Below, one piece after another: positions 10,910 to 59,119 of a stretch of 64,000 nucleotides of DNA. The notes under the pieces were generated by a model that ran no database searches, was not told the origin of the DNA, and saw only the letters and a program-made list of their open reading frames with translations. Each line of letters opens with the position of its first letter. Position 1 is the stretch's first letter. The stretch covers positions 434,001-498,000 of the forward strand of contig NC_015437.1 in assembly GCF_000208405.1 (NCBI RefSeq), given 5' to 3'. This DNA is from Selenomonas sputigena ATCC 35185. Its GTDB lineage: Bacteria; Bacillota; Negativicutes; Selenomonadales; Selenomonadaceae. Both the position numbers and the translations under genes were made by a program.

Positions 10910-12085
10910 ATGCGGCTTCTGTTAGCAAATTTTTCCAAGATGGTGGGTGACACAGGCGGTGCGGCGAAGGTGCATTGCAGCTTTGCGAACGAGATGAAGC
11001 GGCGCGGTCATGATGTGGCGATGGTGTTTTGTGATGATAAGATTGGCAAGCCGTTCTTTCCTGTCGATGATGGCATTGAATTATGCAACTTGCAGCATTA
11101 TGAAGATACAGATGTCGTTTTCCCGAAGTATCTGAAAGTCAAACGAGAGCTCGTTCGTGCCTTCAGTACGCGAAGAGGGCGTGCTGTGAACAATGGATTT
11201 GTTAAGACGTATCTGCTTGCACCGACAAAACGTGTTTTGGAAAGTTTCAAACCTGATATTGTCATTTGCTGGCAGACGCTTGCCAGCAAGATTTTTCTTT
11301 GTGACTTAGAAACGAAAATACCTGTAATCACTATGTCTCATGGCGATCCGGAAGATATTTTCCATACATACCCGCAGGAAGAAATACCGGCTTTGGGCAA
11401 GAGTACAGCATGTCAAGTCTTGCTGCCGTCCTTTGTGGAAGCAATAAAGAAACGTTTTCCCAATATGAAGACGGTGACCATCGGCAATGTAGTTCCGCAG
11501 TATGAAGAAGCAGCAGATTTGGGATGTGAGAAAGAACAATACAAGATCATTTTCATCGGGCGTCTGGTGAAAAATCACAAGAGGCCGCATCTGCTGATTG
11601 AAGCTTTTGCCAGACTTGCTGATGATTTTCCCGATTGGATTGTGGAAATCTGGGGGGGCGGTGCGAAGAAGTCGTATCAAAAAAGTCTGGAAACGTTGAT
11701 TCAGCGTGCGGGTTTGGAACAGCGAGTTTTTTTGAAGGGTACGACCCATGATGTCGCCTCTGTCTTGCAAAAGGGTGATCTATTCGTTTGTCCTAGCGCT
11801 TATGAAGGCTTTAGCTTAGCTTTAACCGAAGCCATGAGTATGGGACTTCCAGCGATTGGTTATAAGGATAGTATTTCTGTAAATGAATTGATTCAAGATG
11901 GCATCACTGGATTTCTTGCTGAAGATGGTGTAGATGGTATGGTACAAAGTATGAAAATGCTTATGGCAAATCAAGATTTGCGGGTGAGGATGGGGATGGC
12001 AGCAAGGGAATCAATGCGCCAGTATGAAGCCTCCGTAATTTGGGATGAATGGGAAAGCTTACTGGATGAATGTAGGAAATATTAA
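10910..12085 (+). CDS. GT4-family glycosyltransferase
   Basis: 391-residue GT-B transferase. The N-terminal domain starts with GDTGGAAKVHCSFANEMKRRGHDV. The C-terminal GT4 domain shows IIFIGRLVKNHKRPHLLIEAF and the E-x7-E donor site in PSAYEGFSLALTEAMSMGLP. It likely transfers a sugar to outer core or O-polysaccharide; the substrate cannot be told. An 81-bp gap with an A+T-rich stretch separates it from gmhB, with AAAGGGG upstream of the ATG. Base composition drops here compared with the heptose operon, suggesting a variable, exchanged region. Confidence 0.88.
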   Translation: MRLLLANFSKMVGDTGGAAKVHCSFANEMKRRGHDVAMVFCDDKIGKPFFPVDDGIELCNLQHYEDTDVVFPKYLKVKRELVRAFSTRRGRAVNNGFVKTYLLAPTKRVLESFKPDIVICWQTLASKIFLCDLETKIPVITMSHGDPEDIFHTYPQEEIPALGKSTACQVLLPSFVEAIKKRFPNMKTVTIGNVVPQYEEAADLGCEKEQYKIIFIGRLVKNHKRPHLLIEAFARLADDFPDWIVEIWGGGAKKSYQKSLETLIQRAGLEQRVFLKGTTHDVASVLQKGDLFVCPSAYEGFSLALTEAMSMGLPAIGYKDSISVNELIQDGITGFLAEDGVDGMVQSMKMLMANQDLRVRMGMAARESMRQYEASVIWDEWESLLDECRKY

Positions 12086-12174
12086 GGTGCTGGGAAAAAT
12101 TCCTTTGCGTAATCATAGTGGATCAATAGTGGATCAATCTGGTAATGCTTATTTTCGTTAAAATGACTCCAGCT

Positions 12175-13212
12175 TCAAAATTTATCCATCTCGGGACAGA
12201 TTCTGCTTTGGACGAAAGAACGGATCGAGGTGTGGGGAACAGCATCTTTATATCCTTTTTGAGCAAGCTCTCGGCGTAGCTCTTCATGATACAAGTAATA
12301 TTCAATTTTTTCTAGAAGATCATATTCATCAAGAAAAGAGATCGTAGAATCTGCTTGCAATATGCCGTCATCGATGTCTTTTTTGTAGATATGATCTGTC
12401 AGTTGGAAAGAGCCTGTTGCTAGGATCTCGAACGTTCTTGGATTTAGACCGAGATGTTCGATAGCACCGATGTTCAGACAAATTTTACTGCGGCGATATA
12501 TATTTGCCGTTTCGTTGCTGGAAATACGATGATTTAATAAGTAAGGAAATAACTTCGGATGCCTTTTTTGGTACTGCCACTTTTTCCAAAAATATTTTCT
12601 GTCATACCATGGTCCTGCGATAAGCATGGTCAGATGATGCTCCTGACTATATTTCGCTGTAGCATCCAATATAGTTGTCCGATTTGGTAGAGGGATGCCG
12701 ACAAAGGATATGTCAATATCTTTTATAGTTTCTTCGAAAAAGTATGCATTCTCGTCATAGCCTAAAGGACAATATGTAGAAGAGATGCTATATGTTTTTT
12801 GAATGAAAGGTACGTCCTTCGATTCAAAGCAAAAGATGTGCGAGAAATGGGGAATGATTTTACTAAAAAAAGGAAACCTGTTTATTCCATCCCATGTCCA
12901 TAAAAATTTAGGAATATGTAAAGATTCTAGATAAGAAAGAAGACATTCATCTAAATAAAGACCACTGAGGACAAGGATATAATCTGGCTGGAAGTTATCA
13001 TAGCAAAATCTTAATCGTGAGCATTGAGTGTATTCATATCTCTTTTTTGCGGCTTTGTAACCTAGTTTATAGAGTTTTCTTTCCCAGTAGCTACAATCTA
13101 AATAGAATTCGTTGCAATAAAAAAGTTGTGTACGATAGCCAATCTTTTGGAATGCAGATGATACACCGCTAGAATGTGAAAGATACGGGGGAGCTAGAAT
13201 CAGAATTTTCAT
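12175..13212 (-). CDS. CgeB-like glycosyltransferase
   Basis: 345-residue protein resembling the CgeB/DUF3880 group of GT-B transferases: N-terminal MKILILAPPYLSHSSGV, a middle WTWDGINRFPFF, and C-terminal RSKICLNIGAIEHLGLNPRTFEILATGSF, the usual spot for an acidic donor-binding residue. The start is ATG 13212 because the GAGG just upstream serves it; an ATG at 13224 is four codons longer. It is convergent with the GT4 gene and closely follows a GT9 gene. It is A+T-rich with codon use unlike the heptose genes. The sugar and acceptor are unknown. Confidence 0.72.
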   Translation of the reverse strand: MKILILAPPYLSHSSGVSSAFQKIGYRTQLFYCNEFYLDCSYWERKLYKLGYKAAKKRYEYTQCSRLRFCYDNFQPDYILVLSGLYLDECLLSYLESLHIPKFLWTWDGINRFPFFSKIIPHFSHIFCFESKDVPFIQKTYSISSTYCPLGYDENAYFFEETIKDIDISFVGIPLPNRTTILDATAKYSQEHHLTMLIAGPWYDRKYFWKKWQYQKRHPKLFPYLLNHRISSNETANIYRRSKICLNIGAIEHLGLNPRTFEILATGSFQLTDHIYKKDIDDGILQADSTISFLDEYDLLEKIEYYLYHEELRRELAQKGYKDAVPHTSIRSFVQSRICPEMDKF

Positions 13213-13224
13213 AGGGTACCTCAT

Positions 13225-14262
13225 TTATATCGAGCATATAACTTGATTGATTGTAGAGCAAATCATATTAGGCGTAATTTTTGTTAAACACTTTTTTTCT
13301 AAACAGGTGCGTGCCACCTCTGCGTTGCAGGTTGAACTGCATGTCATGTGCATGCTGATGGGATGGCAAAAAGGGCCTGCCCATCGTGAAGGTACATCTG
13401 TCGTAAAGAGCGCGATGGACGGCGTTTTCCTTGCACATGCTATATGCATGGGGCCGCTATCTGTAGCAATGACTAATTGAGCACGATCCAACAAGGCTAT
13501 GAGTTCACGTAAGGAGAGACAGCCGCTTAAATCATATATGTTGTTCGTTCCTTCTTGTTGCTTTAATGATTGTAGATATGACAACGGATGATCGTGGGAC
13601 AGGACAATCTCATAAGGATAATTTTTTTGAAGATGTTCAATCGCTGCCATGACTAAAGATGAAGGAATTGATTGAGCGGTTCTGCCTACCGGGGCAAATA
13701 CAATATATGGTTTCTCCTCGTTCAAGGATCGCCCTAACTGATGAAGCTTCGTTTTTACGGACTGCCACTCTTCTTCCGTCGGGGTAGATACATCGTAATG
13801 TGCATTTATGGACAATTGCATGCCTAAAGCTTGCCCTAGCTGATTGGCAATGGATTGAGGGCGATACTGTGTACCATAAGAGTCTAAATGAGGTAAAACA
13901 AGATGAAAATATTTCCGTTTGAGGTATTTTTCTTTGCATACGCCTGCACAAAAGGAGACTCTCAGAAACTTCAGCATACGAGCGTATAGCGATTGCCATG
14001 TGGTGAAGATGATAATATCTTGTTGGTGTAGTAGTCGAGCCGTTTTTAGGATTCCTGTGACAGATTTATCAATGGGACAAACACGAGAGACGTAGGGTAG
14101 ACGATCCACCATTTTTAAATTTCCTGGATGTGACATGATGGTGATTTCACATCCAGGAAATTGGTTTTTCAGTTCACGTAAGGCAGGTGTCAGCATAATC
14201 AGGTCACCCATGCCAGGAGTACCCTCAACCAATAATCGCATGTTGTTCAGATTGATTTTCAT
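13225..14262 (-). CDS. GT9-family glycosyltransferase (third copy, divergent)
   Basis: 345 residues from ATG 14262 (GAGGAGGG upstream; the frame extends to 14382 without a better site). N-terminal VEGTPGMGDLIMLTPALREL and the C-terminal donor motif IATDSGPMHIACARKTPSIALF mark it as GT9. It ends with a cysteine cluster (CSSTC..CLEKKC). It belongs to the A+T-rich minus-strand set with its two neighbours, so it probably acts on outer core or O-antigen rather than inner-core heptose. Confidence 0.82.
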   Translation of the reverse strand: MKINLNNMRLLVEGTPGMGDLIMLTPALRELKNQFPGCEITIMSHPGNLKMVDRLPYVSRVCPIDKSVTGILKTARLLHQQDIIIFTTWQSLYARMLKFLRVSFCAGVCKEKYLKRKYFHLVLPHLDSYGTQYRPQSIANQLGQALGMQLSINAHYDVSTPTEEEWQSVKTKLHQLGRSLNEEKPYIVFAPVGRTAQSIPSSLVMAAIEHLQKNYPYEIVLSHDHPLSYLQSLKQQEGTNNIYDLSGCLSLRELIALLDRAQLVIATDSGPMHIACARKTPSIALFTTDVPSRWAGPFCHPISMHMTCSSTCNAEVARTCLEKKCLTKITPNMICSTINQVICSI

Positions 14263-14284
14263 GAAGGGGAACCCTCCTCTGTTG

Positions 14285-15247
14285 TTAAATATCTTGCTCG
14301 GGATAAAAATATCTCTTGCATTCGACAAGGAAAGAATCAACAGCATCATCGTTTTCCTTGTGCATCTTATGGATTTGCTCAAACATCTTTTCGCGTGTAG
14401 CTAAGGCGTATTCAATCGCCTCTGGTGTATTGCCCCAAGCAATGCCGTAGCCTTCTTCTTCTTTTCCGATGCAATCGGTACGGGTTTTTCCTTCTTCAAG
14501 CATGACGATCGGGATGCAGCCGCACATGGCGGCGATGAGACTGTAGGAAGTGTACATATCATAGCAATAGCAATATTTTTTCTGATTGAGGATTTCTGCA
14601 ATCTCATGTTTGGAAAGTTTGTCGATGACGGGTCCGTCAAACTGCTTGGGCAAGTCCGCGCGGTCGTGTCCTTTGTGCACGATGTAGCAGCAGCCGGAAC
14701 GCTCTCCGAAATTTGTCTGTTTCCACATGTCTTCGTCTAGAGCTTGTAGATGTAATTTGCGCCCAGAAGGGTTTAATATCTCGTCGTTAAACAGTTCATG
14801 ATAAGTAAAAATGAGAGCATCCTTTGCGTAAGCGTTAGCGTCACCCTTGTAGGGATTGAAAAACAAAAGCCAGTAAATGGTTTTCTTGGCACGTAAAGGG
14901 TTTCCATAGACGATTTCAGGATAGATTACAATGGTTTCGTCATCAATTGTTGGGAGATACTTTTGCTGGCAACCTTTGACTGGAAAGTAGGCGTAGCCGT
15001 TGTAGCGAGGTTTTTTGGTGAACTTCGCCTTGGGAAATAATTGTGCCTTGAGTCGTCGAGGAATATCATGCCGTAAGAAGCAAATGTGATCGAATAAAAA
15101 CGTGGCATAGGATATAGGATATTTTCTTTTAAATGCGGTATAAAAAATTTTTGCATCATGACCGCGATCCATCAATAGTTTGCAGAGGAGGTGGAGAACA
15201 ATAGCGCCTCCACTAGTTTGTCGCGGGCTGACAATGAGAAATTTCAT
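14285..15247 (-). CDS. Putative glycosyltransferase-like protein
   Basis: 320 residues. MKFLIVSPRQTSGGAIVLHLLCKLL opens like a GT-B N-terminal domain (first 20: MKFLIVSPRQTSGGAIVLHL). A later segment CYDMYTSYSLIAAMCGCIPIVML resembles the donor-domain turn of such transferases (key residues YTSYSLIAAMCG). I do not recognise a precise family. It is the first gene of a three-gene minus-strand group with a 22-bp gap to the GT9 gene, and AAAGGATG precedes the start. It is likely involved in surface polysaccharide assembly, inferred from neighbours. Confidence 0.65.
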   Translation of the reverse strand: MKFLIVSPRQTSGGAIVLHLLCKLLMDRGHDAKIFYTAFKRKYPISYATFLFDHICFLRHDIPRRLKAQLFPKAKFTKKPRYNGYAYFPVKGCQQKYLPTIDDETIVIYPEIVYGNPLRAKKTIYWLLFFNPYKGDANAYAKDALIFTYHELFNDEILNPSGRKLHLQALDEDMWKQTNFGERSGCCYIVHKGHDRADLPKQFDGPVIDKLSKHEIAEILNQKKYCYCYDMYTSYSLIAAMCGCIPIVMLEEGKTRTDCIGKEEEGYGIAWGNTPEAIEYALATREKMFEQIHKMHKENDDAVDSFLVECKRYFYPEQDI

Positions 15248-15390
15248 AAGAAAAACATCCTTTCGTTTGGGTTGGGTGGTAATAAAGTGAATGAATTATG
15301 AATATATGAAAGAATTATTCACGGTGCGCCTAAGCACGACAATTGGCTAGAATCATATAAGTGTATGGCTGAAATTACCAGTGTATATGG

Positions 15391-15987
15391 TTATAAAAAT
15401 TTCCTTTTGGACCGTTTCCATTTAAATAAAGTCCATTCATATTTAATATGTTCTCCAATATTGATGAAAAATTTCCCGTTGATATTGAAGAATTCTTTGA
15501 ATGATTTTTCTAGAATCAAAAGGGAAAAACCGATAGCTATACTAGTAAAGGTGTTTGGAATCAGCGATTCAAGAGTTATCGGTTGAGAAAAGTGGATTTC
15601 ATAAACCTGTGTTTGGTTTATGTATGTTTGGAGAAGTGCCTCTCCAGAAATCACTGTTTCAGAGGGGTTATCATATAATGAAGCAGGTTGGAGTACTATG
15701 GCAGAGATAAGAGCGGATATCACGAAAAAGAGCAATGGAAGAAGCGTTATATCTTTAGTGAGGATGCTTTTGAGCATATATGTCACATATGCTGGCATGA
15801 TGGCTACAAAAGCAACTGCGACAAATGGAATGAAAAGGAGCGATTGTACTATATAAAATAGGAATGCAAGGAGAACGACTAGAAATATGCCAAAAAAACG
15901 TCGTTCGGGATCATTCTCGTTATATTTCCAACAATAACGTATGAGAACGAGTGCGCAAAGTATAAGCCAAATAGCCCCCAGGTTCAT
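15391..15987 (-). CDS. Small integral membrane protein, unknown
   Basis: 198 residues with about five hydrophobic segments: an N-terminal pair (AIWLILCALVLIRYC; FGIFLVVLLAFLFYI), two in the middle, and IAIGFSLLILEKSF near 150. It has a basic C-terminus (KWKRSKRKFL). GGGGA precedes ATG 15987. No family recognised. It stands upstream of the minus-strand glycosyltransferases and could be a flippase accessory or modifier of surface glycans, but nothing in the sequence proves that. Confidence 0.6.
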   Translation of the reverse strand: MNLGAIWLILCALVLIRYCWKYNENDPERRFFGIFLVVLLAFLFYIVQSLLFIPFVAVAFVAIMPAYVTYMLKSILTKDITLLPLLFFVISALISAIVLQPASLYDNPSETVISGEALLQTYINQTQVYEIHFSQPITLESLIPNTFTSIAIGFSLLILEKSFKEFFNINGKFFINIGEHIKYEWTLFKWKRSKRKFL

Positions 15988-16413
15988 TTTTTCACATCCC
16001 CACTATTTTGTGTTTTGTTGGCTTCGTCATATTAAGATAACGAAGAATCATGAATGTTTCAATAGACACGAGAGTTGGTGGTATGTTCGTAGAATGCGCA
16101 TAAGGGAATATGCGAGGTAAGAGTCGAATATAGTTTCATCACGGTAAGAGCGAAAATTGCTGAACGAGAATTGACATAGAACGAACGTCACCCTCATGGA
16201 TTTATGATAGTATAAAAATGGGTAAAAATCAATGTCTGAAGCAGGAATGTTAAAATGATTTACGGGCAGTTCTCTCCGAACTGCTCAATAATCATGTTGC
16301 GGGATTTAGGATGGCGGATTCTTCTGTGGAAATGGCTTTTGTACTGGAATGTCTTGTGATATACTTTGAGATGACAGTTTTCGACTGCATTCACCATACG
16401 AGGAGGCCTGGCA
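15988..16413 (+). promoter_or_regulatory. Divergent intergenic region with candidate promoter for the sulfatase-fold gene
   Basis: 426 A+T-rich bases between divergent genes. An extended -10 (TGA-TATACT, 16359-16364) with a weak -35 (TTTTGT, 16336-16341) points toward the gene at 16414, whose TTG is preceded by GAGGAGG at 16400-16406. I see no other gene or repeat here. Confidence 0.45.
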
Positions 16414-18378
16414 TTGCGGCTCGAACAGTTTTTTGCGAATCTGCAGAAGGATTTGAAGGTTTTTCTTTTCCTTCTCTTCGTTATATGTCTCTATCGTGCA
16501 TATTTCATGGCATATATGTCGGAAGCGATAGCGCCGAACACTTCAATGGGGGAAGTGTTTCTTGCGCTTTGGCTGGGCTTTCGTATCAGCTTGAAATCAG
16601 CAGGGGCGATCGCGCTTCTTGTTTTTGCATTCTGCTCTTTGCCGGAACTTGTTTTGCCGAGGCTGCGGCTTGATCGTTTGCGGCTTTGGATCGGAACGGC
16701 AGGGAGCGCGCTTCTTGCCATATTCTTTCAGGCGCGGTTTCCGTATTATGAGGTGTTTCATGCGACGTTCGGCAGGGAGGTCGTGCAGGGGATGCATGAA
16801 GACACGCAGACGATTTTCTCGATGTTAGTTGAATCGTATGCGCTGCCGACACGCCTTTTGGCGGCCGTTGTTTTGACTGCAATTTCCTATTTTCTGCTGC
16901 GTCGCCTGCTGCGTACGGAAACGATGCCTTTGCCAAATTGCTTGAATCGATGGGCGTTAGGTGTGGGGCTTTTTCTATTCATTCCGATATTTTTTATCTT
17001 TATTCGCTTCGGAGGAAGTTTTAATTACGAGCATTCAATCAACTGGGAGAATGCTTCGGTCACGAAAGATCCTTTCCTTAATGAGTGCATTTTGGACGAT
17101 ATTCAGGCGATGTATCGTGTGCGGGATTTTTACCTTAATATGCAAAAGGATGGCGGCGTCAGTTTCATTGATGTATCGCGTGCTGAGGAATACATGGGTT
17201 TCCTAGGGGGGGACATGAATAGGAGAGAGGGGCTTGAGGCGAGCCTCACGCGCACGGCGAGGGGGGCGCGACTACCGAAGCCGAAGCATATCTTCATCAT
17301 CCTTGGCGAAACGTATGCGCAATGGCCGATGCTCCCCGAGTATGCCGATCTTCATGGCGCCGATGGCATCAAGAGTTTGATTGCTGAGGATCGAGCCTTT
17401 TATACGCAGTCTTTTATGCCGAACGGTACATTTACACTCGTGGCGATTACGGGGCTTGTGACGGGCCTCAGCGATGTAGGCATGGATTTGAATTATCAGC
17501 CGAAGAGTTTTCGGGAGGTGTATCTCACTTCGATGGCACCGCAGTTTCAGCGCTTGGGCTATCGTGTGGAGTTTTGGTATGGGGGATATCCGGAATGGGA
17601 TTCCATCAAGAAACTGTCGCTCGCCCAAGGGTTTGATGCATTTTACGGTGCGCCGGATTATAATGCGCCGCAGCAAAATGTTTGGGGAACGACAGACGGT
17701 CATCTCTTCGAGGCACTTTACGATCATTTGGCAGAGGAAGAACCGACGGTTCATCTCATCATGACGATTTCCAATCATCCGCCTTACGATATTGATCTTG
17801 CTGCAGAGGGCATTGATACGGCAGAATTGGAAAGTGCGCTGCAGGGACGCACGGAGCAGCCGAAGCAGCTGGCATTGGAAGTGGGACACTACCGCTATAT
17901 GGACAAGGTGGTGACGGATTTTGTGCGCAGGACGATGGCAGCTTATCCGGACAGCATTTTCGTGATCACGGGCGATCATTCGATTCGCATGGATCCGACG
18001 GCGCAGCCGACGCTTTTTGAGCACGAAAGCGTGCCGTTCGTCTTGTATGGCAATGGAGTGACGAAGGATATCCTGCCCAAGGATGCTGTGGGCGGGCATA
18101 CGGCGATTGTTCCGACGCTGATCGAGCTGATTGCACCTGAGGGATTTTCGTACGCGTCGATTGCACGAAGCATGACGGAAGGAACGAAGTATGCGTTCAA
18201 CTCAGATTGTTGGATCAGTCGCGAAGCTATGGGCAATGTCGACGACGACCGCATGGAGCTTTTACCGGGAATCGCATCGCCGCAGGACGATCTTGCGACG
18301 GAGCGTGAGGCAGCGCTCTATGAAGTCGCCGCGATGAGGACGCTTTCGCGAATTTTAATCGGGGATATGGAACAGTGA
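16414..18378 (+). CDS. Sulfatase-fold membrane transferase (LTA synthase/phosphoglycerol transferase family)
   Basis: 654 residues. About five transmembrane segments fill the first 200 residues. A periplasmic alkaline-phosphatase/sulfatase domain follows, with the metal-binding Glu in ILGETYAQWP (about 301), the nucleophile Thr in MPNGTFTLVAITG (about 340) and GDHSIR near 520. In Gram-positives such enzymes polymerise lipoteichoic acid. In an LPS-bearing Firmicute the likelier job is adding phosphoglycerol or phosphoethanolamine to a surface glycan or lipid, an inference. Start TTG is supported by GAGGAGG 7 nt upstream. It precedes a GT17 gene by 12 bp, probably one transcript. Confidence 0.8.
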   Translation: MRLEQFFANLQKDLKVFLFLLFVICLYRAYFMAYMSEAIAPNTSMGEVFLALWLGFRISLKSAGAIALLVFAFCSLPELVLPRLRLDRLRLWIGTAGSALLAIFFQARFPYYEVFHATFGREVVQGMHEDTQTIFSMLVESYALPTRLLAAVVLTAISYFLLRRLLRTETMPLPNCLNRWALGVGLFLFIPIFFIFIRFGGSFNYEHSINWENASVTKDPFLNECILDDIQAMYRVRDFYLNMQKDGGVSFIDVSRAEEYMGFLGGDMNRREGLEASLTRTARGARLPKPKHIFIILGETYAQWPMLPEYADLHGADGIKSLIAEDRAFYTQSFMPNGTFTLVAITGLVTGLSDVGMDLNYQPKSFREVYLTSMAPQFQRLGYRVEFWYGGYPEWDSIKKLSLAQGFDAFYGAPDYNAPQQNVWGTTDGHLFEALYDHLAEEEPTVHLIMTISNHPPYDIDLAAEGIDTAELESALQGRTEQPKQLALEVGHYRYMDKVVTDFVRRTMAAYPDSIFVITGDHSIRMDPTAQPTLFEHESVPFVLYGNGVTKDILPKDAVGGHTAIVPTLIELIAPEGFSYASIARSMTEGTKYAFNSDCWISREAMGNVDDDRMELLPGIASPQDDLATEREAALYEVAAMRTLSRILIGDMEQ

Positions 18379-18390
18379 GGATGCAGAACA

Positions 18391-19296
18391 TTGGCGATTT
18401 ACGATTGTTTTACGTTTTATAACGAATATGAACTTCTTGAATGGCGTTTGAAGATGCTTTACGATGTTGTCGATTTGTTTGTCATTGTCGAGGGAAATCG
18501 TACGTTTCAAAATAAGCCCAAGGAGTTCAATTTTCCTAAATATGAAAAGCTCTTTGCACCTTACGAGAAAAAAATTCGCTATGTGGCAATTGAGGAAGAA
18601 ATGCCATATGACAGCGACTGGTCAATTGAGATTTTTCAGCGAAATTATATCAAGAATGCTCTTGTTGACTGCAAGGACGATGATATTATCCTTTTGTCTG
18701 ATGTCGATGAATTTGCTGCACCGGAGCTTTTGCAACAAGTGGAAGATGGCTTGGGTGAAGTTCATATTTTTTCTACGTTCGAGCGTGTGGCAGAGCGTGA
18801 AGGCCTGCGCGGTTTGTCGCGCAATACGCGTTGTTTTTTGCGGTCAGTGCCTTATATGGGCAAGCGATCGTCCATACGGGAGTTCTTGCGGTATAGCCCT
18901 GTGGTATGTGAGCAGGCGATGTATAATTTTTTCATCAATTATCGAAGAGATTCGAACTGGTGCGGTTTGATTCTTGCGGAATATGGGCAGATCGTGGATA
19001 TGCAAAAACTGCGTTCACGGCGCAATCAATTTCCGCTGGTATACGGCGGCTGGCACTTTTCATCTTTGGGTGGTTTGAAGATGATTCGCAATAAGATTAA
19101 CTCGACATCCGACGGAATGTGCAATCCCATTTATGGTTTGCCAGAAGAAGAGCAGAATCAAGTGATCGAAGACGCACTGGAGAAGGGCTATATTTGGTGG
19201 CGAGATGAGTATTTGAAAAAATGTACCTTGGAGGATATGGATATTCCGTGGATTGAATGGTTTGCGAAGAAGTATCCGTATATGTATCATGGCTGA
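18391..19296 (+). CDS. GT17-family glycosyltransferase
   Basis: 301 residues starting at TTG 18391. It matches the GT17 (N-acetylglucosaminyltransferase-like) family: AIYDCFTFYNEYELLEWRL, VIVEGNRTFQNKPK, the acidic LLSDVDEFAAPEL near 103, and GGWHFSSLGG. Bacterial members sit in polysaccharide loci and have little-studied acceptors. It is only 12 bp after the sulfatase-fold gene, so they may modify the same glycan. Confidence 0.85.
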   Translation: MAIYDCFTFYNEYELLEWRLKMLYDVVDLFVIVEGNRTFQNKPKEFNFPKYEKLFAPYEKKIRYVAIEEEMPYDSDWSIEIFQRNYIKNALVDCKDDDIILLSDVDEFAAPELLQQVEDGLGEVHIFSTFERVAEREGLRGLSRNTRCFLRSVPYMGKRSSIREFLRYSPVVCEQAMYNFFINYRRDSNWCGLILAEYGQIVDMQKLRSRRNQFPLVYGGWHFSSLGGLKMIRNKINSTSDGMCNPIYGLPEEEQNQVIEDALEKGYIWWRDEYLKKCTLEDMDIPWIEWFAKKYPYMYHG

Positions 19297-19301
19297 GAAC
19301 T

Positions 19302-19385
19302 ATGAGCGAATTTGATTTAAAAAAAGCAATGATAAATGTGGCATTGCCCCTTGGTGTGGCTTTTGGCTTATCGGTGATTTTTTGA
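19302..19385 (+). CDS. 27-codon ORF coupled to the VirK-like gene
   Basis: Starts ATG 19302 and reads MSEFDLKKAMINVALPLG then VAFGLSVIF before TGA. The stop overlaps the ATG of the next gene (TGATG). The product would be a short charged-then-hydrophobic peptide. The downstream gene has no clear ribosome binding site, so this ORF may provide translational coupling, or it may be the remnant of a longer membrane gene. No expression evidence. Confidence 0.35.
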   Translation: MSEFDLKKAMINVALPLGVAFGLSVIF

Positions 19386-20320
19386 TGAAATGGGTTTGGA
19401 GGCTAAGGAGAACAGCTGTGCAAAGTTTTTGGAGCTTAGGGAAGAAAATATACAATATGTCAAATCCGCGCGAAGCGCGTCGCTGTGTGGTGTTTTGTGC
19501 TCGTGCGATGGCGAATCGCTCGCGGATGCGGCAGATTGATGATTTTTTTCATCAGGATGCAGTCTTGCAGCAGGTGGCGGATGTGTGTCCTTTCGTTTAT
19601 GAGCAGCCGACGCGGGCGTTTTTTTATAACAAGTCCACATTTGAGGAACGCGCCGCGCTTGTTGAGGCGCATATAGGATTTTTATGCGATGTGTTGGACG
19701 AGCATGTTTTGCTTGCCTTGTATCGGCATGAGCAGATGCTTCTTTGGCGTGGCGAGTCGTGTATGGAAAAAGAGCTTGCAGCGTTTCTTCTTTTCGAGCC
19801 GGGACAGCGTAAGGAGGGGCTTCTTTCCGTTATGCTGCGGCTTGGTGAGAGTGCGCTCTATCAGATCATCTTCTGGCTGAACAAAGCGCCGGATGGCGAG
19901 ATGGCGATGTGGATCGGTGCGATGCAGGGGCCGAATATGGAAAATGCCAAGGATGTCGTCAAACAGGTGACGAAGGCGTGTCATGCCTACCGCACGAAGA
20001 ATCTCATTCTCTATATGGCGCAGGCCGTCGCAAGATCTTTGGGGCTTAAGCACATCTATGCCGTGTCGAATGAGGGCTATTACGCGAACAATCATATCCG
20101 CCGCGACCGCAAGCTCAAGACGGATTTCGGCACTTTCTGGGAAGAAGCGGGCGGTCAGGTGCTGGCGGATGCACGCTTCTATGAACTGCCGCTCGTCGAG
20201 ACGCGAAAGACGATGGAGGAAGTGCCGACGAGGAAGCGTGCAGTCTACCGCAGGCGTTTTGCCTTCTTGGATGATGTGGACGCGCAGATTGCGGAGAATA
20301 TGGGGAAGATATTGCGCTAG
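19385..20320 (+). CDS. VirK/YbjX (DUF535) family protein
   Basis: 311 residues matching the VirK/YbjX family. In enteric bacteria members of this family are linked to outer-membrane remodelling, peptide resistance and export of virulence proteins; the biochemical role is unknown. Typical segments are VCPFVYEQPTRAFFYNKSTF, LYQIIFWL, IGAMQGPNMENAKDVVKQVT and HIYAVSNEGYYANNHIRRD. The start is taken at ATG 19385 (TGATG overlap with the short ORF); a TTG one codon earlier is also possible. It follows the surface-glycan genes and precedes the toxin/defence-like cluster. Confidence 0.82.
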   Translation: MKWVWRLRRTAVQSFWSLGKKIYNMSNPREARRCVVFCARAMANRSRMRQIDDFFHQDAVLQQVADVCPFVYEQPTRAFFYNKSTFEERAALVEAHIGFLCDVLDEHVLLALYRHEQMLLWRGESCMEKELAAFLLFEPGQRKEGLLSVMLRLGESALYQIIFWLNKAPDGEMAMWIGAMQGPNMENAKDVVKQVTKACHAYRTKNLILYMAQAVARSLGLKHIYAVSNEGYYANNHIRRDRKLKTDFGTFWEEAGGQVLADARFYELPLVETRKTMEEVPTRKRAVYRRRFAFLDDVDAQIAENMGKILR

Positions 20321-20342
20321 AGAAATGCGGGAGGGGGATTGT

Positions 20343-21428
20343 ATGAATCAATTCCAGCTGACGAGGCTTAAGGTGTTGGGATTCAAGTCCATTCAAGAGA
20401 CGGAAATAGAGTTTGGTATGTTGAATGTTTTGATTGGCAGCAATGGTTCGGGTAAGACGAATTTAATTTCCTTGTTTTCGCTTCTACAGGCAATGATTGA
20501 GGGGCGACTGCAATCGTATGTCGCTAAAAAAGGCGGTCCGGATACGTTCTTGCATTGGGGGCGTAAAAGAACCGAAGCATTAAGCGCTGCTTTTTACTTC
20601 GGCAACAATGGCTATGGCTTTTCTCTTGAGGCTACGGCGGATAATCGTTTGATGATTGGCGATGAGGTTTTTTACTGGACGAAAAGTGATGAGCGTTCCA
20701 TTGGCTGTGGCAATATGGAATCTGTTTGGCGCGAAGGTACACACACGGGAATCGATCGATATGTAAAGCCGATTTTAGAGAAACAGAAATGGCGAGTGTA
20801 TCATTTTCACGATACGAGCGATACGGCATTGGTGAAGCAGATTCATGGTATTAATGACAACATTGAACTGGCGACGGACGCAAGGAATCTAGCGGCATTT
20901 CTTTATCGCCTGCAAAAAACAGAAGAAAAATCTTATTATCGTATTGTCAGTGTCGTGCAGATGGCAGCGCCGTATTTTGATGATTTTATCTTGCGCGAGA
21001 ATCCGTTGAATCCGAAAAGCATTGACTTGGAGTGGAGGGCGAAAGGCAGCGATCTGCCGTTTATGGCTTCCCAATTATCGGATGGAACGCTGCGGTTTAT
21101 TTGTTTGGCAGTATTGCTTTTACAGCCAACGTACCTTCAGCCGGAAACTATTTTGATTGATGAGCCTGAATTGGGATTGCATCCTTACGCGATTCAGCTT
21201 TTAGCCTCGTTGATAAAGAAGGCCTCTCGGAAAAAACAGATCATTGTCTCGACACAGTCCGTAGAATTGCTGAATGAATTTCAAGCGAATGACATCATCG
21301 TCGTCGAGCATAAGGACGCCACATCCACTTTTCGTCGCTTGAACAGCGAGGCATTGTCTTTCTGGATTGCAGAAGATTATACTTTGGGAGATTTGTGGAA
21401 ACGAAATATTTTTGGGGGGCGTCCTTGA
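20343..21428 (+). CDS. AAA family ATPase (RecF/OLD-like, AAA_21)
   Basis: 361-residue ATPase of the SMC/RecF/OLD-like class. Walker A GSNGSGKT is at 32-39. An ABC-like signature region (ASQLSDGTLRFICLAVLLL) is near 240 and Walker B ETILIDEPELGLHP near 270, followed by a switch region IIVSTQSVELLNEF. GGGAGGGGG precedes ATG 20343. It is followed one base later by a DUF4276 gene, a pairing widespread in bacterial genomes. By analogy with other ATPase/TOPRIM-like pairs (OLD, AbiL type) a phage-defence role is possible but not shown. Confidence 0.87.
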   Translation: MNQFQLTRLKVLGFKSIQETEIEFGMLNVLIGSNGSGKTNLISLFSLLQAMIEGRLQSYVAKKGGPDTFLHWGRKRTEALSAAFYFGNNGYGFSLEATADNRLMIGDEVFYWTKSDERSIGCGNMESVWREGTHTGIDRYVKPILEKQKWRVYHFHDTSDTALVKQIHGINDNIELATDARNLAAFLYRLQKTEEKSYYRIVSVVQMAAPYFDDFILRENPLNPKSIDLEWRAKGSDLPFMASQLSDGTLRFICLAVLLLQPTYLQPETILIDEPELGLHPYAIQLLASLIKKASRKKQIIVSTQSVELLNEFQANDIIVVEHKDATSTFRRLNSEALSFWIAEDYTLGDLWKRNIFGGRP

Positions 21429-21429
21429 T

Positions 21430-22059
21430 ATGGTGCGCATCAAGATTTATTGTGAGGGATTATCGGAGGAAACGTTTATCAAGAATATCTTGGTTCCTTC
21501 TTTTGTTGAAAAGCAAATCTATCTTACGGCAATTCCTTGCGATGGTGTTTCCAAGTATAGTCGCATACGAAAAGATATTCGCGATCTTTGCAGGGAAGAC
21601 ACTAGAGCGATTGTCACAACAATGCTGGATTATTATGGACTTCCTGCAGAAACTCCAGGATATAGAGAAGCGCCGAAAGATGATGTATATCGGATGGTGG
21701 AATTTGTAGAACGGAAAATCGCGGAAGATATTAGCGAAGAAAACTTTTATCCGAACCTATTGCTGCATGAATATGAGACGCTTTTGTTTTCAAATGTAGA
21801 TGCGTTTTCATTTTGTGATTTGAACCATCAGCAGATGGAGTCCTTGCGTGAAATCAGCAGGTGTTTTCCTACGCCAGAACATATCAATAATAGTCCGAAT
21901 ACTGCACCATCGAAACGTATCTTAAAAATATGTGAGGATTATGATAAAGTTCCTGATGGTTATAAGATTGCGGAAAATATTGGTTTGCATGTTATGCGTG
22001 AAAAATGCTGCCATTTCGATGCGTGGCTTTGTTATCTGGAAAATCTTCAGAATTGCTAA
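21430..22059 (+). CDS. DUF4276 family protein, partner of the AAA ATPase
   Basis: 209 residues: N-terminal IKIYCEGLSEETFIKNIL with the conserved CEG..E of DUF4276, TTMLDYYGLP, and LLLHEYETLLFSNVDAF. The family is thought to have a TOPRIM-like fold with acidic metal-binding residues (EGxxE and DxxG-like), which would suit a nuclease or regulator. ATG 21430 is one base after the ATPase stop, so translation is almost surely coupled. Lower G+C than the housekeeping blocks. Confidence 0.8.
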   Translation: MVRIKIYCEGLSEETFIKNILVPSFVEKQIYLTAIPCDGVSKYSRIRKDIRDLCREDTRAIVTTMLDYYGLPAETPGYREAPKDDVYRMVEFVERKIAEDISEENFYPNLLLHEYETLLFSNVDAFSFCDLNHQQMESLREISRCFPTPEHINNSPNTAPSKRILKICEDYDKVPDGYKIAENIGLHVMREKCCHFDAWLCYLENLQNC

Positions 22060-22090: not shown

Positions 22091-22234
22091 GTGTACGGTC
22101 TGCCGTCGGAACATTGGAAAGCGATTTATCGCATCTTCTACGCGCAAAAGACGGGGTTTCATTGGGTGAAGCTTTTCGGTTCGCGAGCGCGGGGGGAGGC
22201 ACGGGCGACTTCTGACGTTGAATTTGTACCTTGA
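22091..22234 (+). pseudogene. Truncated MNT-type nucleotidyltransferase (antitoxin) fragment
   Basis: A 47-codon remnant starting near GTG 22091 that keeps the nucleotidyltransferase signature FGSRARGEARATS. The GS-x10-DxD motif here ends DVE, then a stop after three codons. Intact proteins of this type have about 100 residues, as in the copy at 24327. The frame ends where the downstream HEPN-type fragment begins, as if a deletion removed the 3' part of this gene and the 5' part of its partner. Confidence 0.7.
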
Positions 22235-22538
22235 CGCGACGATTCAGCTCTTCGAGTTTTGCTTTGAGCTGGCATGGAAGCTGATGAAAACGGTGCTTTC
22301 CTACGAGGGAATCGAGGTCAGCAGTCCGCGGGCCAGCATACGCGAGGGGTGGAAGCAGGGGCTGGTGCAAGAGGCGGAAGCGTGGCTTGATATGCTCGAA
22401 AAGCGGAAGTTGTCTGCGCATACATACAACGAGCAAACGGCGCAGGTGATTTATGTGGCTGTAAAGGGCAAGTACTTTGCGATGCTGGCGGCGCTGGAGG
22501 GGGAAGTGGCAGCACGATGGGAAGAGGACGAAAGATGA
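22218..22538 (+). pseudogene. HEPN/HI0074-type partner, N-terminally truncated
   Basis: 106 codons readable from a TTG; the sequence aligns from its first residues with the middle of the intact HEPN protein at 24598 (FEFCFELAWKLMK against FEICFEQAWKAMK). About 35 N-terminal residues are missing. It retains the RNase-type RX4HXY motif (RKLSAHTY). It overlaps the broken nucleotidyltransferase fragment by 17 bases. It may be expressed from the TTG, but I think it is decayed. Confidence 0.6.
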
Positions 22539-22539
22539 G

Positions 22540-22714
22540 AATACGATGATATAAAACGGAAATGGAATTTTTGGCGTATGATGGATGGAATATAACAAAG
22601 ATATAAATCTTGTTATATTATTGTGTTGTTATTATATATTTTAGATAACAAACTATAAATTGTTATAAAAACATGTAAAATCATTGAATAGAATTGATGT
22701 TTCTGTTATCATTT
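22540..22714 (+). promoter_or_regulatory. A+T-rich intergenic stretch with inverted repeat
   Basis: About 175 very A+T-rich bases before a dispersed repeat. ATAACAA (22645-22651) and TTGTTAT (22660-22666) form an inverted repeat with an 8-nt spacer, and related TTGTTAT words occur around it. This is a candidate operator/promoter region for the AlbA_2 regulator downstream. No gene seen. Confidence 0.35.
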
Positions 22715-22821
22715 TACCATGAAGCCACAAGAGGTCAAGCCGAAGGCGCAGACCGATTGGCTAGGCTTTTGTAAGGGCGGCGCACAATGTCCACGAAGTG
22801 GACGTTTGTGCGTGTAGCTTA
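22715..22821 (+). repeat. Dispersed repeat, copy A (full length)
   Basis: About 107 bp beginning TACCATGAAGCC and ending TTTGTGCGTGTAGCTTA. It includes the inverted pair around CACAATGTCCAC and GTGGACGTTTGTG. It aligns along its length with the reverse complement of 59120-59229 at roughly 88% by eye, and in part with 45367-45439 and 24273-24315. No ORF inside, so a MITE- or REP-like element. Confidence 0.8.
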
Positions 22822-22842
22822 CTGATATGGAGGAAAAGTAAA

Positions 22843-24330
22843 ATGATTATAGAAGATCTCGTTGGATTGACGCGTTGGGTTTTGCAGAAAAAAACGGAAA
22901 CGCAGATGTTGGAGGTCAAAGCTGCGCATGAAGGATGCCCGCGTCATCTTTATGATACGTTATCGAGCTTTTCCAATCAGGATGGTGGCGGGACGTTGCT
23001 ATTTGGCATTGATGAAGAACAAGATTTCGCTCTTGTGGGTGTATATGATCTGCATGATTTGCAAAAGAAGGTTGGAGAGCAATGCCTGCAGATGGAGCCT
23101 CCTGTGCGAGCGGTCTTTACCGTGGCGGAAGTGGATGGCCTCGATGTTTGCTCTGCGGAAATTCCTGGTTTGGACTTATCGGAGAGACCTTGCTATTATA
23201 AGGGCAAGGGGCGAGTGAAGGGTTCCTATGTGCGTGTCGGGGATGCCGATTACTGCATGTCGGAGTATGAGCTTTACAGCTTTGAAGCGTTTCGCAAGCA
23301 TCTGCATGATGATGAACGGTCAGTAGCTCGGGCAAGGAGCGAAGATCTGCGGTTGGAAGCGACCGAGGCCTATTGGCAGGAGAAATGCAGAGAGCGTCCA
23401 GGGTTTGCACAGATTCCGCGTGAACGTGCCTATGAGCTGCTGAATGTGCTGCGCGACGGCAAGCCTACGTTGGCGGCTCTGCTGAATTTTGGTATATATC
23501 CGCAGGGGTTTCTCACGCAGTTTTGCATTACGGCAGTTGTCGTTCCAGGCAAGGAAGTTGGTGCGACGGATGAGAATGATGCACGTTTCTTGGATAATAA
23601 GCGCATAGAAGGAACTCTGGCCGAGATGCTTGCTGAGGCGCTTGTTTTCTGTCGGCGCAATATGAAGACACAGGTGAGTATTGATAAGGGGACCGGCAGA
23701 CGGTGCGATCGGACGGAGTATCCTGTTGCGGCTATTCGTGAGGCTGTGCTCAATGCACTCATTCATCGAGATTACAGCATTTATACGGAAGGGGCGCCGA
23801 TTCAGATCTACATGTTTACAGATCGATTGGAGATTCATAGTCCAGGCAGTTTGTACGGACGCATGACGGTTGAGCAGTTGGGAAAGGCGAAATTGGATCT
23901 GCGCAATCCGGCGCTCGCAGTTATGGCGGAAATGATCATCGAGGCAGAAAATCGTTATTCGGGGATTCCGACGATGTATCGGGAAATGCACGCCTTTGGT
24001 CTGCCTGAGCCGCAATTTGAGAATAGGCGCGATGAGTTTGTCGTTACGTTTTTCAATCAGCGGGAATCAGAATCTGTGAGAGAGAGCTTTTCGCTTGGCG
24101 AGCAGGATTTGTTGGCTTTTTGCAAGGTTCCGCGCACAAGAGCAGAGATCGCGGCATTCTTGGGAATCGCTACCGTGGGATATGTGCAGCGGCGATATAT
24201 ACGTCCGTTGCTGGCTTCCGGCGCACTTCGCATGACTTTGCCGGAAACGCCGCGAAGCAGCAAGCAGAAATATTACCATGAAGCCCCAAGAGGTCAAGCC
24301 GAAGGATCAGACTGGGAGGTTTTTCGATGA
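22843..24330 (+). CDS. AlbA_2 (Schlafen-like) and HATPase_c_4 domain regulator/RecG-like protein
   Basis: 495 residues from ATG 22843 (GGAGG upstream). The N-terminal AlbA_2 domain runs from LEVKAAHEG to about 130 (NQDGGGTLLFGI). The C-terminal HATPase_c_4 domain (about 290-410) contains AIREAVLNALIHRDYS and FTDRLEIHSPGSL. A winged-helix-like end precedes the stop. Annotated relatives are called transcriptional regulators or RecG-like helicases, though no helicase motifs are visible. The last 18 or so codons come from a partial copy of the dispersed repeat. It overlaps the next gene by 4 bp (ATGA) and lies among toxin-antitoxin genes. Confidence 0.85.
   Translation: MIIEDLVGLTRWVLQKKTETQMLEVKAAHEGCPRHLYDTLSSFSNQDGGGTLLFGIDEEQDFALVGVYDLHDLQKKVGEQCLQMEPPVRAVFTVAEVDGLDVCSAEIPGLDLSERPCYYKGKGRVKGSYVRVGDADYCMSEYELYSFEAFRKHLHDDERSVARARSEDLRLEATEAYWQEKCRERPGFAQIPRERAYELLNVLRDGKPTLAALLNFGIYPQGFLTQFCITAVVVPGKEVGATDENDARFLDNKRIEGTLAEMLAEALVFCRRNMKTQVSIDKGTGRRCDRTEYPVAAIREAVLNALIHRDYSIYTEGAPIQIYMFTDRLEIHSPGSLYGRMTVEQLGKAKLDLRNPALAVMAEMIIEAENRYSGIPTMYREMHAFGLPEPQFENRRDEFVVTFFNQRESESVRESFSLGEQDLLAFCKVPRTRAEIAAFLGIATVGYVQRRYIRPLLASGALRMTLPETPRSSKQKYYHEAPRGQAEGSDWEVFR
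24273..24315 (+). repeat. Dispersed repeat, copy B (first ~40 bp only)
   Basis: Matches the beginning of copy A (TACCATGAAGCCCCAAGAGG, then TCAAGCCGAAGGATCAGACTGG). It is in the same orientation as copy A, and the two flank the AlbA_2 gene directly. It is translated as the C-terminus of that gene. Confidence 0.75.
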
Positions 24331-24671
24331 ATCTGCCGAATCCTATCCGTGAGGGGATCGTGCGGCTCGCACGCAAGTACGGCTTGTCGCGTGTCGTGCT
24401 CTTCGGCTCGCGGGCGCGCGGCGACAACTGGGAGCGCAGCGATGTCGATCTCGCGGTTGCAGGCGGCGACGTTGTGCGGTTTTCGCTCGATGTAGACGAA
24501 GAGCTGCCGACGCTCCTGATGTTCGATGTTGTCAACTTGGATGGTCCTGTGCAGCCGGAGCTTTTGGAAGAGATTCAAAGGGATGGTGTTTTGCTTTATG
24601 AAAAAGGCAGAGAATTTCCTCAAAGCGCTACAGAATCTCAAGGAGATCGAGGGGAAGAAGCCTCCCTATGA
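24327..24671 (+). CDS. MNT-type minimal nucleotidyltransferase (MntA-like antitoxin)
   Basis: 114 residues with the full GS-x10-DxD motif (FGSRARGDNWERSDVDLAV). This is the minimal nucleotidyltransferase fold; in MntA-HepT systems it adds AMP to the HEPN toxin. GGGAGG lies upstream of ATG 24327. It overlaps the partner by 74 bp, a long overlap that could mean its true end is earlier, as the last 25 residues (after GVLLYEKG) do not look like the family. Confidence 0.82.
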   Translation: MNLPNPIREGIVRLARKYGLSRVVLFGSRARGDNWERSDVDLAVAGGDVVRFSLDVDEELPTLLMFDVVNLDGPVQPELLEEIQRDGVLLYEKGREFPQSATESQGDRGEEASL

Positions 24672-24987
24672 TACGATTGCGACGGCGGGCATGGTGTCGC
24701 TTTTCGAGATATGCTTCGAGCAGGCATGGAAGGCGATGAAGGAGCAGTTGGAGGCGAGCGGCTATGGCGAGCATAAGAGCGGCTCGCCGAAGAGCGTCAT
24801 CAAGCTGGCGTATCAGGCGCGGATGGTCAAGGATGAAGAACTTTGGCTTGCGGCCTTGCAGGCGCGTAACAATGTGGCGCATTCTTACAGTGAACCGATC
24901 GCGCTTTCCATCATTCGTGACAGTCAGGAGAAGTTCATCGCGATGTTCGAGCAGCTGGCGGAGGATCTGCGGGAGAGATGGCTTTGA
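24598..24987 (+). CDS. HEPN-domain protein, HI0074/HepT-like (toxin or substrate-binding partner)
   Basis: 129 residues, all-helical HEPN type (nucleotidyltransferase substrate-binding family, like HI0074). It has the RX4HXY motif RNNVAHSY near residue 89, the RNase and AMPylation site in HepT toxins. It starts within the nucleotidyltransferase gene, so the pair is co-translated. Function as a toxin is inferred from the motif and the pairing; HI0074-type members have not all been shown to be toxic. Confidence 0.8.
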   Translation: MKKAENFLKALQNLKEIEGKKPPYDTIATAGMVSLFEICFEQAWKAMKEQLEASGYGEHKSGSPKSVIKLAYQARMVKDEELWLAALQARNNVAHSYSEPIALSIIRDSQEKFIAMFEQLAEDLRERWL

Positions 24988-25055
24988 TGAAAGCTTGACG
25001 TTTATAGAAATAGGCATTTTTATAAACATCAAGCTTTCATCTTTATAAAAATGCC
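24986..25055 (+). promoter_or_regulatory. Two overlapping inverted repeats upstream of the Fic gene
   Basis: Arms of 26 nt (24986-25011 and 25016-25041, two mismatches, 4-nt spacer) overlap a second pair of perfect 14-nt arms (25013-25026 and 25042-25055, 15-nt spacer). The two hairpins cannot form together. The element fills the gap between the HEPN stop and the Fic start and could be a terminator/antiterminator switch or an operator. Confidence 0.65.
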
Positions 25056-25085
25056 CATTTTAGTAAAGGTCAGGTGTAGGGGGAA

Positions 25086-26321
25086 ATGGCATACAAGAGC
25101 CTGAAGAAGATATACTACAAAAAGACGGAGGACGTAGAGGCAGTATATCAGGCGCGTTGTCAATCTGAGGCGGCCTATCACTTCGATATATGGATTAAAC
25201 AGTATAAACATAAAACGTCGTATCCGGCATTCTTGTGCCTTACGCAAGAGATGTTTTTGCTCATGGAGCGCATTTATAAATCGTATGAGGTGTTTCTGTA
25301 CCTCGTCAATACGGTGCCGCATGTTATTCTGCGGCAGTTTTCGCTCTTGTGCATCGTAGATGAAGTGAAGTCGACGAACGATATCGAAGGCGTTCGGAGT
25401 ACTAGGCGTGAAATCAAGGAAATCCTTGATGGGGGGATACGGAAATCCCACCGTTTGGAGAGTATTGTCCAAAAGTATCGGGGACTGCTTTCAAAGGAAA
25501 AGATCGCCTTTGAAACAAGCCATGACATCCGTAAGTTTTATGATGAATTTGCACATGAAGAGGTCATTCGTGACGATCCGCGAAATGAATTGGATGGAGA
25601 AATATTCCGCAAGGATTCTGTTGATATTGCTTCCCCGACGGAACGTACTGTGCACCAAGGGATTTTTCCTGAAGCACGAATTATAGAAGAGATGGAAAAG
25701 GCGTTGGCTGTTCTTCATGATGAGAAGATTCCCGTATTGATTCGGACGGCTGTATTCCACTATTTTTTTGCTTATATTCATCCCTTTTATGATGGAAATG
25801 GAAGAACGGTGCGCTTTATAACGGCGTATTTCCTGGGGAAGCATCTTCATCCTTTGGCAACGGTTCGGCTGTCCGTTATTTTCAAGAAGCATCAGAAGAG
25901 GTATTACAAACTTTTCGAGGAAACGGACAGTGAGCTCAACCGAGCAGAGATGACGTTGTTCGTGGAAGAGTTCATACGATTCATTGCGGAGTCGATTGAC
26001 GATACTGTACGAATATTGGAGCGGAAGAAGGAGCAGGTGGAGCGGTATCGCCAGCAGATCGAAGAAATGAATTTGGAGGATGCGCTGACGAAAGATTTGT
26101 ATTACATTTTGCTTCAGGCTGCTTTATTTTATGGGCAGGGTATTACGATACAAGAGTTGGAGAAGGTGCTGAAAAGATCGCGGGCGACGATTCAGAAAAG
26201 ATTGGACAAGATTCCGCAGAAGGATCTTGTGAAAACGAGGAAACGGGCAATCTACTATAAGATCAATATGCTTCTTTTCAAGAAGGAAAAGGCAGATGGA
26301 GGAAAGGTGAATAGAGCCTGA
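25086..26321 (+). CDS. Fic family protein (class II, self-inhibited AMPylator type)
   Basis: 411 residues. The core motif HPFYDGNGR at 232-240 has the catalytic His and all loop residues for nucleotide transfer from ATP to a protein hydroxyl. An inhibitory helix motif TNDIEG at 97-102 (S/T-x3-E-G/N) lies N-terminal of the Fic fold, as in class II enzymes. The C-terminal 90 residues look like a winged helix (ITIQELEKVLKRSRATIQKR), common in this subgroup and possibly autoregulatory. Its target is unknown. The gene stands alone behind an unusual double inverted repeat. Confidence 0.9.
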   Translation: MAYKSLKKIYYKKTEDVEAVYQARCQSEAAYHFDIWIKQYKHKTSYPAFLCLTQEMFLLMERIYKSYEVFLYLVNTVPHVILRQFSLLCIVDEVKSTNDIEGVRSTRREIKEILDGGIRKSHRLESIVQKYRGLLSKEKIAFETSHDIRKFYDEFAHEEVIRDDPRNELDGEIFRKDSVDIASPTERTVHQGIFPEARIIEEMEKALAVLHDEKIPVLIRTAVFHYFFAYIHPFYDGNGRTVRFITAYFLGKHLHPLATVRLSVIFKKHQKRYYKLFEETDSELNRAEMTLFVEEFIRFIAESIDDTVRILERKKEQVERYRQQIEEMNLEDALTKDLYYILLQAALFYGQGITIQELEKVLKRSRATIQKRLDKIPQKDLVKTRKRAIYYKINMLLFKKEKADGGKVNRA

Positions 26322-45366: not shown

Positions 45367-45439
45367 ATTACATGCACAAACGAAAGTTACCCAATCAGTC
45401 TGCGCCCTTCGGGCTTGACTTCTTGGACTTTCATAGTAA
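45367..45439 (-). repeat. Dispersed repeat, copy C (central part deleted)
   Basis: Reverse-complement match to the two ends of copies A and D (ACTATGAAAGTCCAAGAAGT, then TCAAGCCCGAAGGGCGCAGA; end TTTGTGCATGTAATTTC). The middle ~35 bp, including GGCGGCGCACAATGTCCAC, is missing. It lies 16 bp after the RclA-like gene's stop. Confidence 0.7.
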
Positions 45440-45556
45440 AGCCACTAATATCATGAAACCGACGGCGTTTCCGCATATCGCAGGATACAGATTTATTTGG
45501 TGAGCAATGGCATCGAACTTTCTGCAGCACCTTTTGAAAAAAATCATCGCTCTGCT

Positions 45557-59098: not shown

Positions 59099-59119
59099 TC
59101 GCCACGCGCGTCTGAGCAT

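Follow-up and report, generated by a model that had tools for sequence, protein, structure and literature searches.

Two probably separate insertions of a dispersed repeat with predicted hairpins bracket an AlbA_2 gene in Selenomonas sputigena

The window analysed here, 64,000 nt of the single-contig, 2,568,361-bp genome of Selenomonas sputigena ATCC 35185 (G000), contains an AlbA_2-domain gene flanked by direct copies of a dispersed repeat, raising the question of whether gene and repeats form one unit or were brought together by separate insertions. A preliminary description had placed the bracket at 22715-24315, with both copies in the same orientation and the second encoding the C-terminal residues; this was confirmed, the coordinates being correct to a few bases. 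The gene (22843..24330, + strand) encodes 495 aa, with its stop codon at 24328-24330, and its SLFN_AlbA_2/HATPase_c_4/Fic-like_C assignment comes from Pfam and homologues. SLFN_AlbA_2 scores 44.3 bits (cut-off 25.3) over residues 19-137, and HATPase_c_4 (317-403) and Fic-like_C (432-477) are also above their Pfam cut-offs. Copy A (22713-22821, + strand) is a full repeat of 109 nt, including a TTTA-like tetranucleotide at each end. Copy B (24273-24312, + strand), 1,560 bp away in the same orientation, is the 5′ part of the repeat, read in frame as H479-D490 (residues 479-490); WEVFR (residues 491-495) and the stop codon follow after its end. The repeat-coded tail begins at residue 479, outside all three Pfam domains.

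Being in frame and common to the two closest homologues, copy B might be gene sequence that only resembles the repeat. However, its 40 nt are 92.5% identical to positions 2-41 of a repeat that the model matches at least 64 times in the genome, and the E value of 2e-11 means that the match is not due to chance. Moreover, the match in a second Selenomonas genome (G001, the only same-genus genome compared) extends past the stop codon, over repeat positions 2-65, and the tail is absent in the other eight aligned homologues. We consider an origin of copy B as gene sequence extremely improbable, and treat it as a repeat copy.

The homologue search gave matches, many of them distant, in 48 of 100 genomes, and the protein alignment has ten rows, the window and nine homologue loci. 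The family ends in ...[KN]Q.[YF]; beyond this motif, eight of the ten rows carry short tails that differ from one another. The repeat-coded HE.PRGQ.EG tail occurs only in the window and G001, which are sisters in the tree (100/100; long branches belong to L063 and L065), and it is absent from four further homologue ends that were inspected. The earlier proposal that the repeat altered the protein end is borne out by this distribution, and no repeat-free homologue among those aligned or inspected shares the C-terminal residues of the window. Because homologues bear many different tails at this position, the tail is probably near-neutral and the change mild.

The age of the two copies can be compared in G001, of which 76 kb, a part of the genome, were fetched for the window comparison. 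The order in G001 is a DUF535-like gene, an intact MNT-HepT-like pair, AlbA_2, a repeat remnant, a MntA-HepT-like pair, a flavin reductase and Crp (DUF535, flavin reductase and Crp are presumed names, given from the protein sequences). G001 has the gene and copy B and lacks copy A, indicating two separate insertions, B the older and A the later. Its copy B is longer and degenerate (64 nt matched, 78%, repeat positions 2-65), runs past the stop codon and is followed by another 3′ module. Judging from the sequences, a small chance remains that copy B was inserted in parallel in the two alleles. We consider it very probable that the bracket reflects two distinct insertion events of a single mobile-looking, non-autonomous repeat, following the four steps set out below, and is not a cassette.

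The cassette alternative holds that the direct copies form a composite unit that imports the AlbA_2 gene or deletes it by recombination. The copies do have the same orientation and 40 nt in common at 92.5%, with the gene between them, and the divergence of the allele suggests that exchange at the locus probably did occur. Against this, G001 carries gene and B without A, and the drop in identity, from ~22437-22500 to ~24400, extends past both repeats. The gene was not found to move with both copies, as in a composite transposon, copy B being a 40-nt remnant. The preliminary description had proposed to seek an empty site with one repeat and no gene; none was seen in the one same-genus genome compared. 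Its notion of a removable cassette is therefore unsupported, and we regard a cassette as very unlikely. The two copies, 1,560 bp apart and alike over 40 nt at 92.5%, could possibly recombine and so remove the gene, and the locus shows no sign of it.

Between the window genome and G001, AlbA_2 has a dS of 1.19, a dN of 0.113 and 81.8% aa identity, vs. dS values of 0.290, 0.364, 0.349, 0.094, 0.117 and 0.282 for six neighbours. The low-identity block ends at ~24400 inside the mntA-like gene, and identity is 91-98% on both sides of it. Identities near the gene are 93.0% (DUF535-like gene), 91.4%, 93.6% and 94.7%, and 10.8 kb further left show 95.0%. From the sequences, AlbA_2 is best read as a divergent allele that arrived by homologous exchange in one lineage. 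Genes of defence-like islands can evolve quickly, and the divergence could instead reflect fast evolution in place; yet the excess is also synonymous (dS 1.19 vs. 0.09-0.36), and identity climbs to 91-98% on both block sides, making this quite unlikely. The block edges fall outside both copies, so the exchange did not have its end points in the repeats. The first BLAST segments had placed the right edge at copy B; this was rejected, since a finer alignment puts the rise in identity near 24400. The 78% DNA identity would fit a donor about as far removed as S. lamontii ATCC 33150, for which PMC13339959 gives 80% ANI to S. sputigena strains.

A second divergent patch at window positions 10922-12073 (76% to G001 over 1.15 kb, beside a 95% stretch) shows that AlbA_2 is not the sole one, a point against the preferred reading. 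For window positions 12073-19406 and the part past 27601, the 76 kb of G001 compared gave no match longer than 150 bp. At 20337-22056, an AAA_21 ATPase and DUF4276 pair, whose best PADLOC match is HEC-01A/HEC-01B, is absent from the corresponding G001 place. The upstream MNT-HepT-like pair (22091-22538) is broken in the window, with ~275 bp of G001 missing and the MNT part shortened.

The order in which the repeat acted on the gene can be read from a relative as an old 3′ insertion, a later truncation and a later insertion in the leader. The copy B target is empty in a further genome, G020 (...CAGCGATATTATGCC vs. ...CAGCGATATTACCATG in G001), indicating that copy B was inserted behind ATTA. 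By this comparison, the first step is a repeat insertion behind ATTA at the gene end, before the AlbA_2 alleles of G000 and G001 split and just after Fic-like_C, providing a new tail and stop. Secondly, the alleles would have diverged, and one lineage would have taken the other allele by homologous exchange with ends outside the repeats. Thirdly, a ~73-bp deletion in the window lineage would have removed the 3′ part of copy B and the stop; the difference is observed, and its direction is probably that of a loss. The order of these three steps rests on two alleles and the outgroup G020, whose downstream gene differs. The fourth step, which is observed, is insertion of a full copy A at TTTA between a –10-like box and the AlbA_2 Shine-Dalgarno. 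The locus carries a caution: a gene flanked by direct repeats is not necessarily a cassette, and here one near relative separated both events.

The truncation moved the AlbA_2 stop into overlap with the next gene. In the window, the copy B remnant ends after GACT and joins GGGAGG, with 73 columns absent relative to G001 in the pairwise alignment. The resulting junction (24313..24330, + strand) contains WEVFR and the stop, the SD-like GGGAGG and an ATGA overlap, in which the TGA of the frame, now ending ...SDWEVFR*, overlaps the next ATG. The G001 protein ends ...QRYYHEIPRGQDEGAD*, with its stop codon within copy B. The next gene (24327..24671, + strand) encodes an MntA-like nucleotidyltransferase, with Pfam Polbeta and NTP_transf_2 above cut-off, and is followed by a HI0074/NTase_sub_bind (HepT-like) gene (24595..24987, + strand; start codon provisional). 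The NCBIfam MntA antitoxin equivalog scores 46.2 bits, below its cut-off of 60, and the HepT-like partner passes the HI0074 subfamily model (92.9 vs. 55.8). By this MntA model, the pair does not qualify as a MntA-HepT type VII toxin-antitoxin system, and we call it ‘MntA-HepT-like’.

By the third step, the overlap of the AlbA_2 TGA with the mntA-like ATG may lead to translational coupling. A stronger claim would be that selection keeps the repeat tail and the ATGA overlap, AlbA_2 being coupled to the MntA-HepT-like pair as an operon with its regulator. The overlap is preceded by the SD-like GGGAGG, and in both genomes the pair follows the gene immediately. However, G001 has the same neighbours and no overlap, tail sequence and length differ between the alleles and tails vary among homologues, and the 150 nt downstream in G020 begin a different gene (by eye). 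Selected coupling is thus unlikely, and we retain the near-neutral tail. Beyond the pair, an inverted repeat at 24996-25072 (two 37-nt arms, 81% complementary) lies between the HepT-like and Fic genes and is also present in G001 (by eye). The Fic-family gene (25086-26321; Pfam Fic above cut-off) is reduced in G001 to its first codons, before the flavin reductase.

At the 5′ side of the gene, a consensus scan finds a promoter-like site of sigma-70-like form (hexamers TTGAAT and TATCAT 17 nt apart, the second preceded by TG; 22684..22712, + strand). Promoter scans exceed expectation in AT-rich stretches (8 vs. 2.0 sites in the window region, and 6 vs. 1.3), so only conservation carries weight for this site. 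G001 has the same layout (TTGTAA-17-TATCAT), and TTGAA boxes can be made out by eye ahead of the homologues L057-L060, three of which also have a second box of the TG type. Copy A stands immediately 3′ of the second hexamer and upstream of the Shine-Dalgarno. When the window flanks are joined at TTTTA, they align with G001 ...TCTGTTATCATTTTCGTAAATGGAGG, an imperfect empty site in which G001 has TTTTCG vs. TTTTAC in the joined flanks.

If the promoter-like site is used, the mRNA leader would be copy A with its two hairpins. The RNA fold of 22717-22848 has a predicted energy of –47.5 kcal/mol (z –4.0); the first GG of GGAGG pairs with the leader start, and the bases that follow, up to the AUG, stay unpaired. 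The DNA fold, the leader RNA fold and the consensus structure predict hairpin 2 of copy A (22780..22813, + strand). Folding of copy B, which is truncated, is unremarkable (RNA z +1.3; DNA z +0.5). On the minus strand, an outward promoter-like consensus match (TTGACC-16-TAAAAT with TG; 22711-22738) lies across the left end of copy A. It consists mostly of repeat sequence, and other copies might carry the same.

The repeat is a unit of ~105 bp with at least 53 DNA matches (40 of 103 candidates scored) and at least 64 by the covariance model (which scored 64 of 1591 candidates) in the window genome. A hairpin-2 core pattern with one mismatch allowed gave 69 matches, vs. 1 for the reversed-pattern control. 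Further copies in the window lie at 45388-45440 (partial) and 59119-59230. Forty loci of the genome were numbered as repeat loci (L009-L048), including two that duplicate the window (L009 and L029), and their 56 places gave 41 full-length copies (39 distinct) for an alignment of 113 columns, in which column identity averages 88%. Copies that are truncated or cut by an IS were omitted from this alignment, so intact hairpins are favoured. Most copies start with TTTA and finish with TTTA or CTTA, and tandem copies have a TTTA-like junction in common.

Two hairpins are predicted in the repeat, and their consensus structure pairs in 97.5% of cells. Seven of the 27 pairs have changed on both sides, a number reached by 2 of 500 shuffles, and the covariation score is 0.171, vs. 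0.094 for shuffled and ≤0.036 for slid alignments; the copies are related, and the shuffle figures do not equal probabilities. The paired changes fall mainly in hairpin 1, defining the sub-types GAAGCC/GGCTTC, GAAACC/GGTTTC and GAAAGT/ACTTTC, with one such pair in hairpin 2. Three loci of the window genome (L033, L039 and L042) join hairpin 1 to a different 3′ module (GTGAGGACATATG ... CTGAAAG), which recurs in several G001 loci. The occurrence of hairpin 1 with another 3′ module indicates that the element is modular. The G001 copy B resembles a shortened form of this alternative module.

Across 60 genomes, searched with stricter filters, the repeat model has matches in 14 at E 0.001, and the best E is below 1e-18 only in G000, G001, G020, G004 and G027. 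Rfam gave no match at gathering score in the window and four sub-threshold matches in 5 loci, none of them on the window repeat positions. A protein-pattern search of genome contigs for named relatives matched 10 stretches and confirmed none. The exact repeat core occurs in 28 stretches (L152-L179) of two uncultured ‘Mitsuokella’ MAGs, from a pattern search in which the window's own and near records were possibly omitted; one of these two MAG genomes has no AlbA_2 match and the other has distant matches only. No description of the Selenomonas repeat was found in a limited search of the open-access literature or in the available part of PMC13339959.

Insertion of the repeat can be followed at three sites without a copy in G001: L010, L015 and copy A. 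Both flanks lie beside a compared G001 locus for 15 of the 40 loci (for L009 this holds through copy B, and L031 is rearranged on its left); the remaining 25 do not count as absences, the comparison having covered part of G001. At L010 the window genome has TTTA - 101 nt - TTTA vs. a single TTTA in G001, a clean 105-bp difference, and L015 is a similar, less tidy insertion site. These two were picked among loci lacking a G001 match, and both of the two directly tested are empty in G001. The TTTA-like tetranucleotide thus stands on both sides of the repeat and once in the L010 empty site, with an almost fixed sequence. As a sequence pattern, it may reflect target choice rather than target-site duplication. 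By eye, without scoring, no terminal inverted repeats, the mark of a MITE of the DDE transposase type, were found in the 41-copy alignment (5′ TTTACYATGAA; 3′ end reversed TAAACTACACG).

Hairpins near both ends, the lack of visible terminal inverted repeats and a left-hand AT-rich tetranucleotide of nearly constant sequence are features of IS200/IS605-derived palindromic elements and of REP/RAYT. The resident Y1 transposase elements differ, however. The six Y1 copies of the window genome stand behind TTAT and have ends unlike those of the repeat (read by eye), and in G001, where the repeat is matched at least 64 times, a Y1 search at E 0.001 found nothing. A resident IS200-like element was rejected as the mobiliser on these two grounds. 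The transposase may since have been lost from G001. Y1 matches accompany the repeat in G000 (6), G020 (4) and G004 (1), and there are none in G027 (82% complete; 30 repeat matches) or G028 (17, weak repeat matches). Two of the six Y1 IS200-like elements (L051 and L053; G000:C1:1180936-1181292 and 2040773-2041129) lie at a repeat 3′ end, one of them between two tandem repeat copies, and at L052 a weak repeat copy is ~60 bp from a Y1 element. The family could serve as a test case for mobility: two related genomes each have 64 or more matches, three sites are occupied in one genome and empty in the other, and one genome lacks a Y1 match.

We tentatively propose, with slightly less than an even chance that all of its parts hold jointly, that the repeat represents a mobile, non-autonomous element family, so far undescribed, of Selenomonas and relatives, whose insertions rewrite gene ends and leaders and whose mobiliser is probably not the resident Y1. 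This element would be ~105 bp long, with two predicted hairpins, paired changes in hairpin 1, TTTA-like sites and interchangeable 3′ modules. At the locus, one copy would have turned the leader of the AlbA_2 regulator into a structured RNA; the other would have set its C-terminus, after which a deletion coupled the gene to the MntA-HepT-like pair.

BOX elements are modular, hairpin-forming and present in many copies, mainly between genes, and no agreed mobiliser is known for them. The modules of the two families differ: in the Selenomonas repeat, hairpin 1 joins hairpin 2 or the other 3′ module. PMC10969869 names the BOX elements of pneumococcus and describes Rickettsia palindromic elements as often joined to genes. 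According to PMC2759123, the enterobacterial RU-1, RU-2 and RU-3 are mobile, 103-168 bp long, and have open frames joined to genes; like the mobile-looking Selenomonas repeat, they are small sequences joined to genes, a likeness drawn from their description and in other bacteria. A close parallel to the gene end described here concerns Coxiella burnetii Dugway, where the C-terminal 33 aa of EnhC come from QMITE2; in another strain, the stop is shifted by an indel (PMC5896051). As in that case, a dispersed short repeat at a gene 3′ end supplies C-terminal residues. By description only, QMITE2 differs in having 7-11-nt direct repeats of variable sequence, whereas the Selenomonas repeat occupies TTTA-like sites with no terminal inverted repeats read. 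Repeat-coded C-termini are thus already known elsewhere, and the Selenomonas case adds to a known kind.

A coding scan of 57 copies (L009 and L029 omitted) flagged L013, L019, L031 and L036, in which, except for L019, the gene stops at or just before the repeat. The scan missed AlbA_2 itself and is therefore an undercount; a looser ORF scan of the repeat loci gave many overlapping frames. At L019:441-556 the gene runs into an oppositely oriented repeat copy, which supplies its last residues and stop. The protein ends ...ENSLAEA*, vs. ...ENALTEA* with a repeat remnant in G001 and ...QKQEE* in G020, where the repeat is absent in the stretch read. Together with AlbA_2, L019 brings the number of repeat-coded gene ends in the window genome to at least two.
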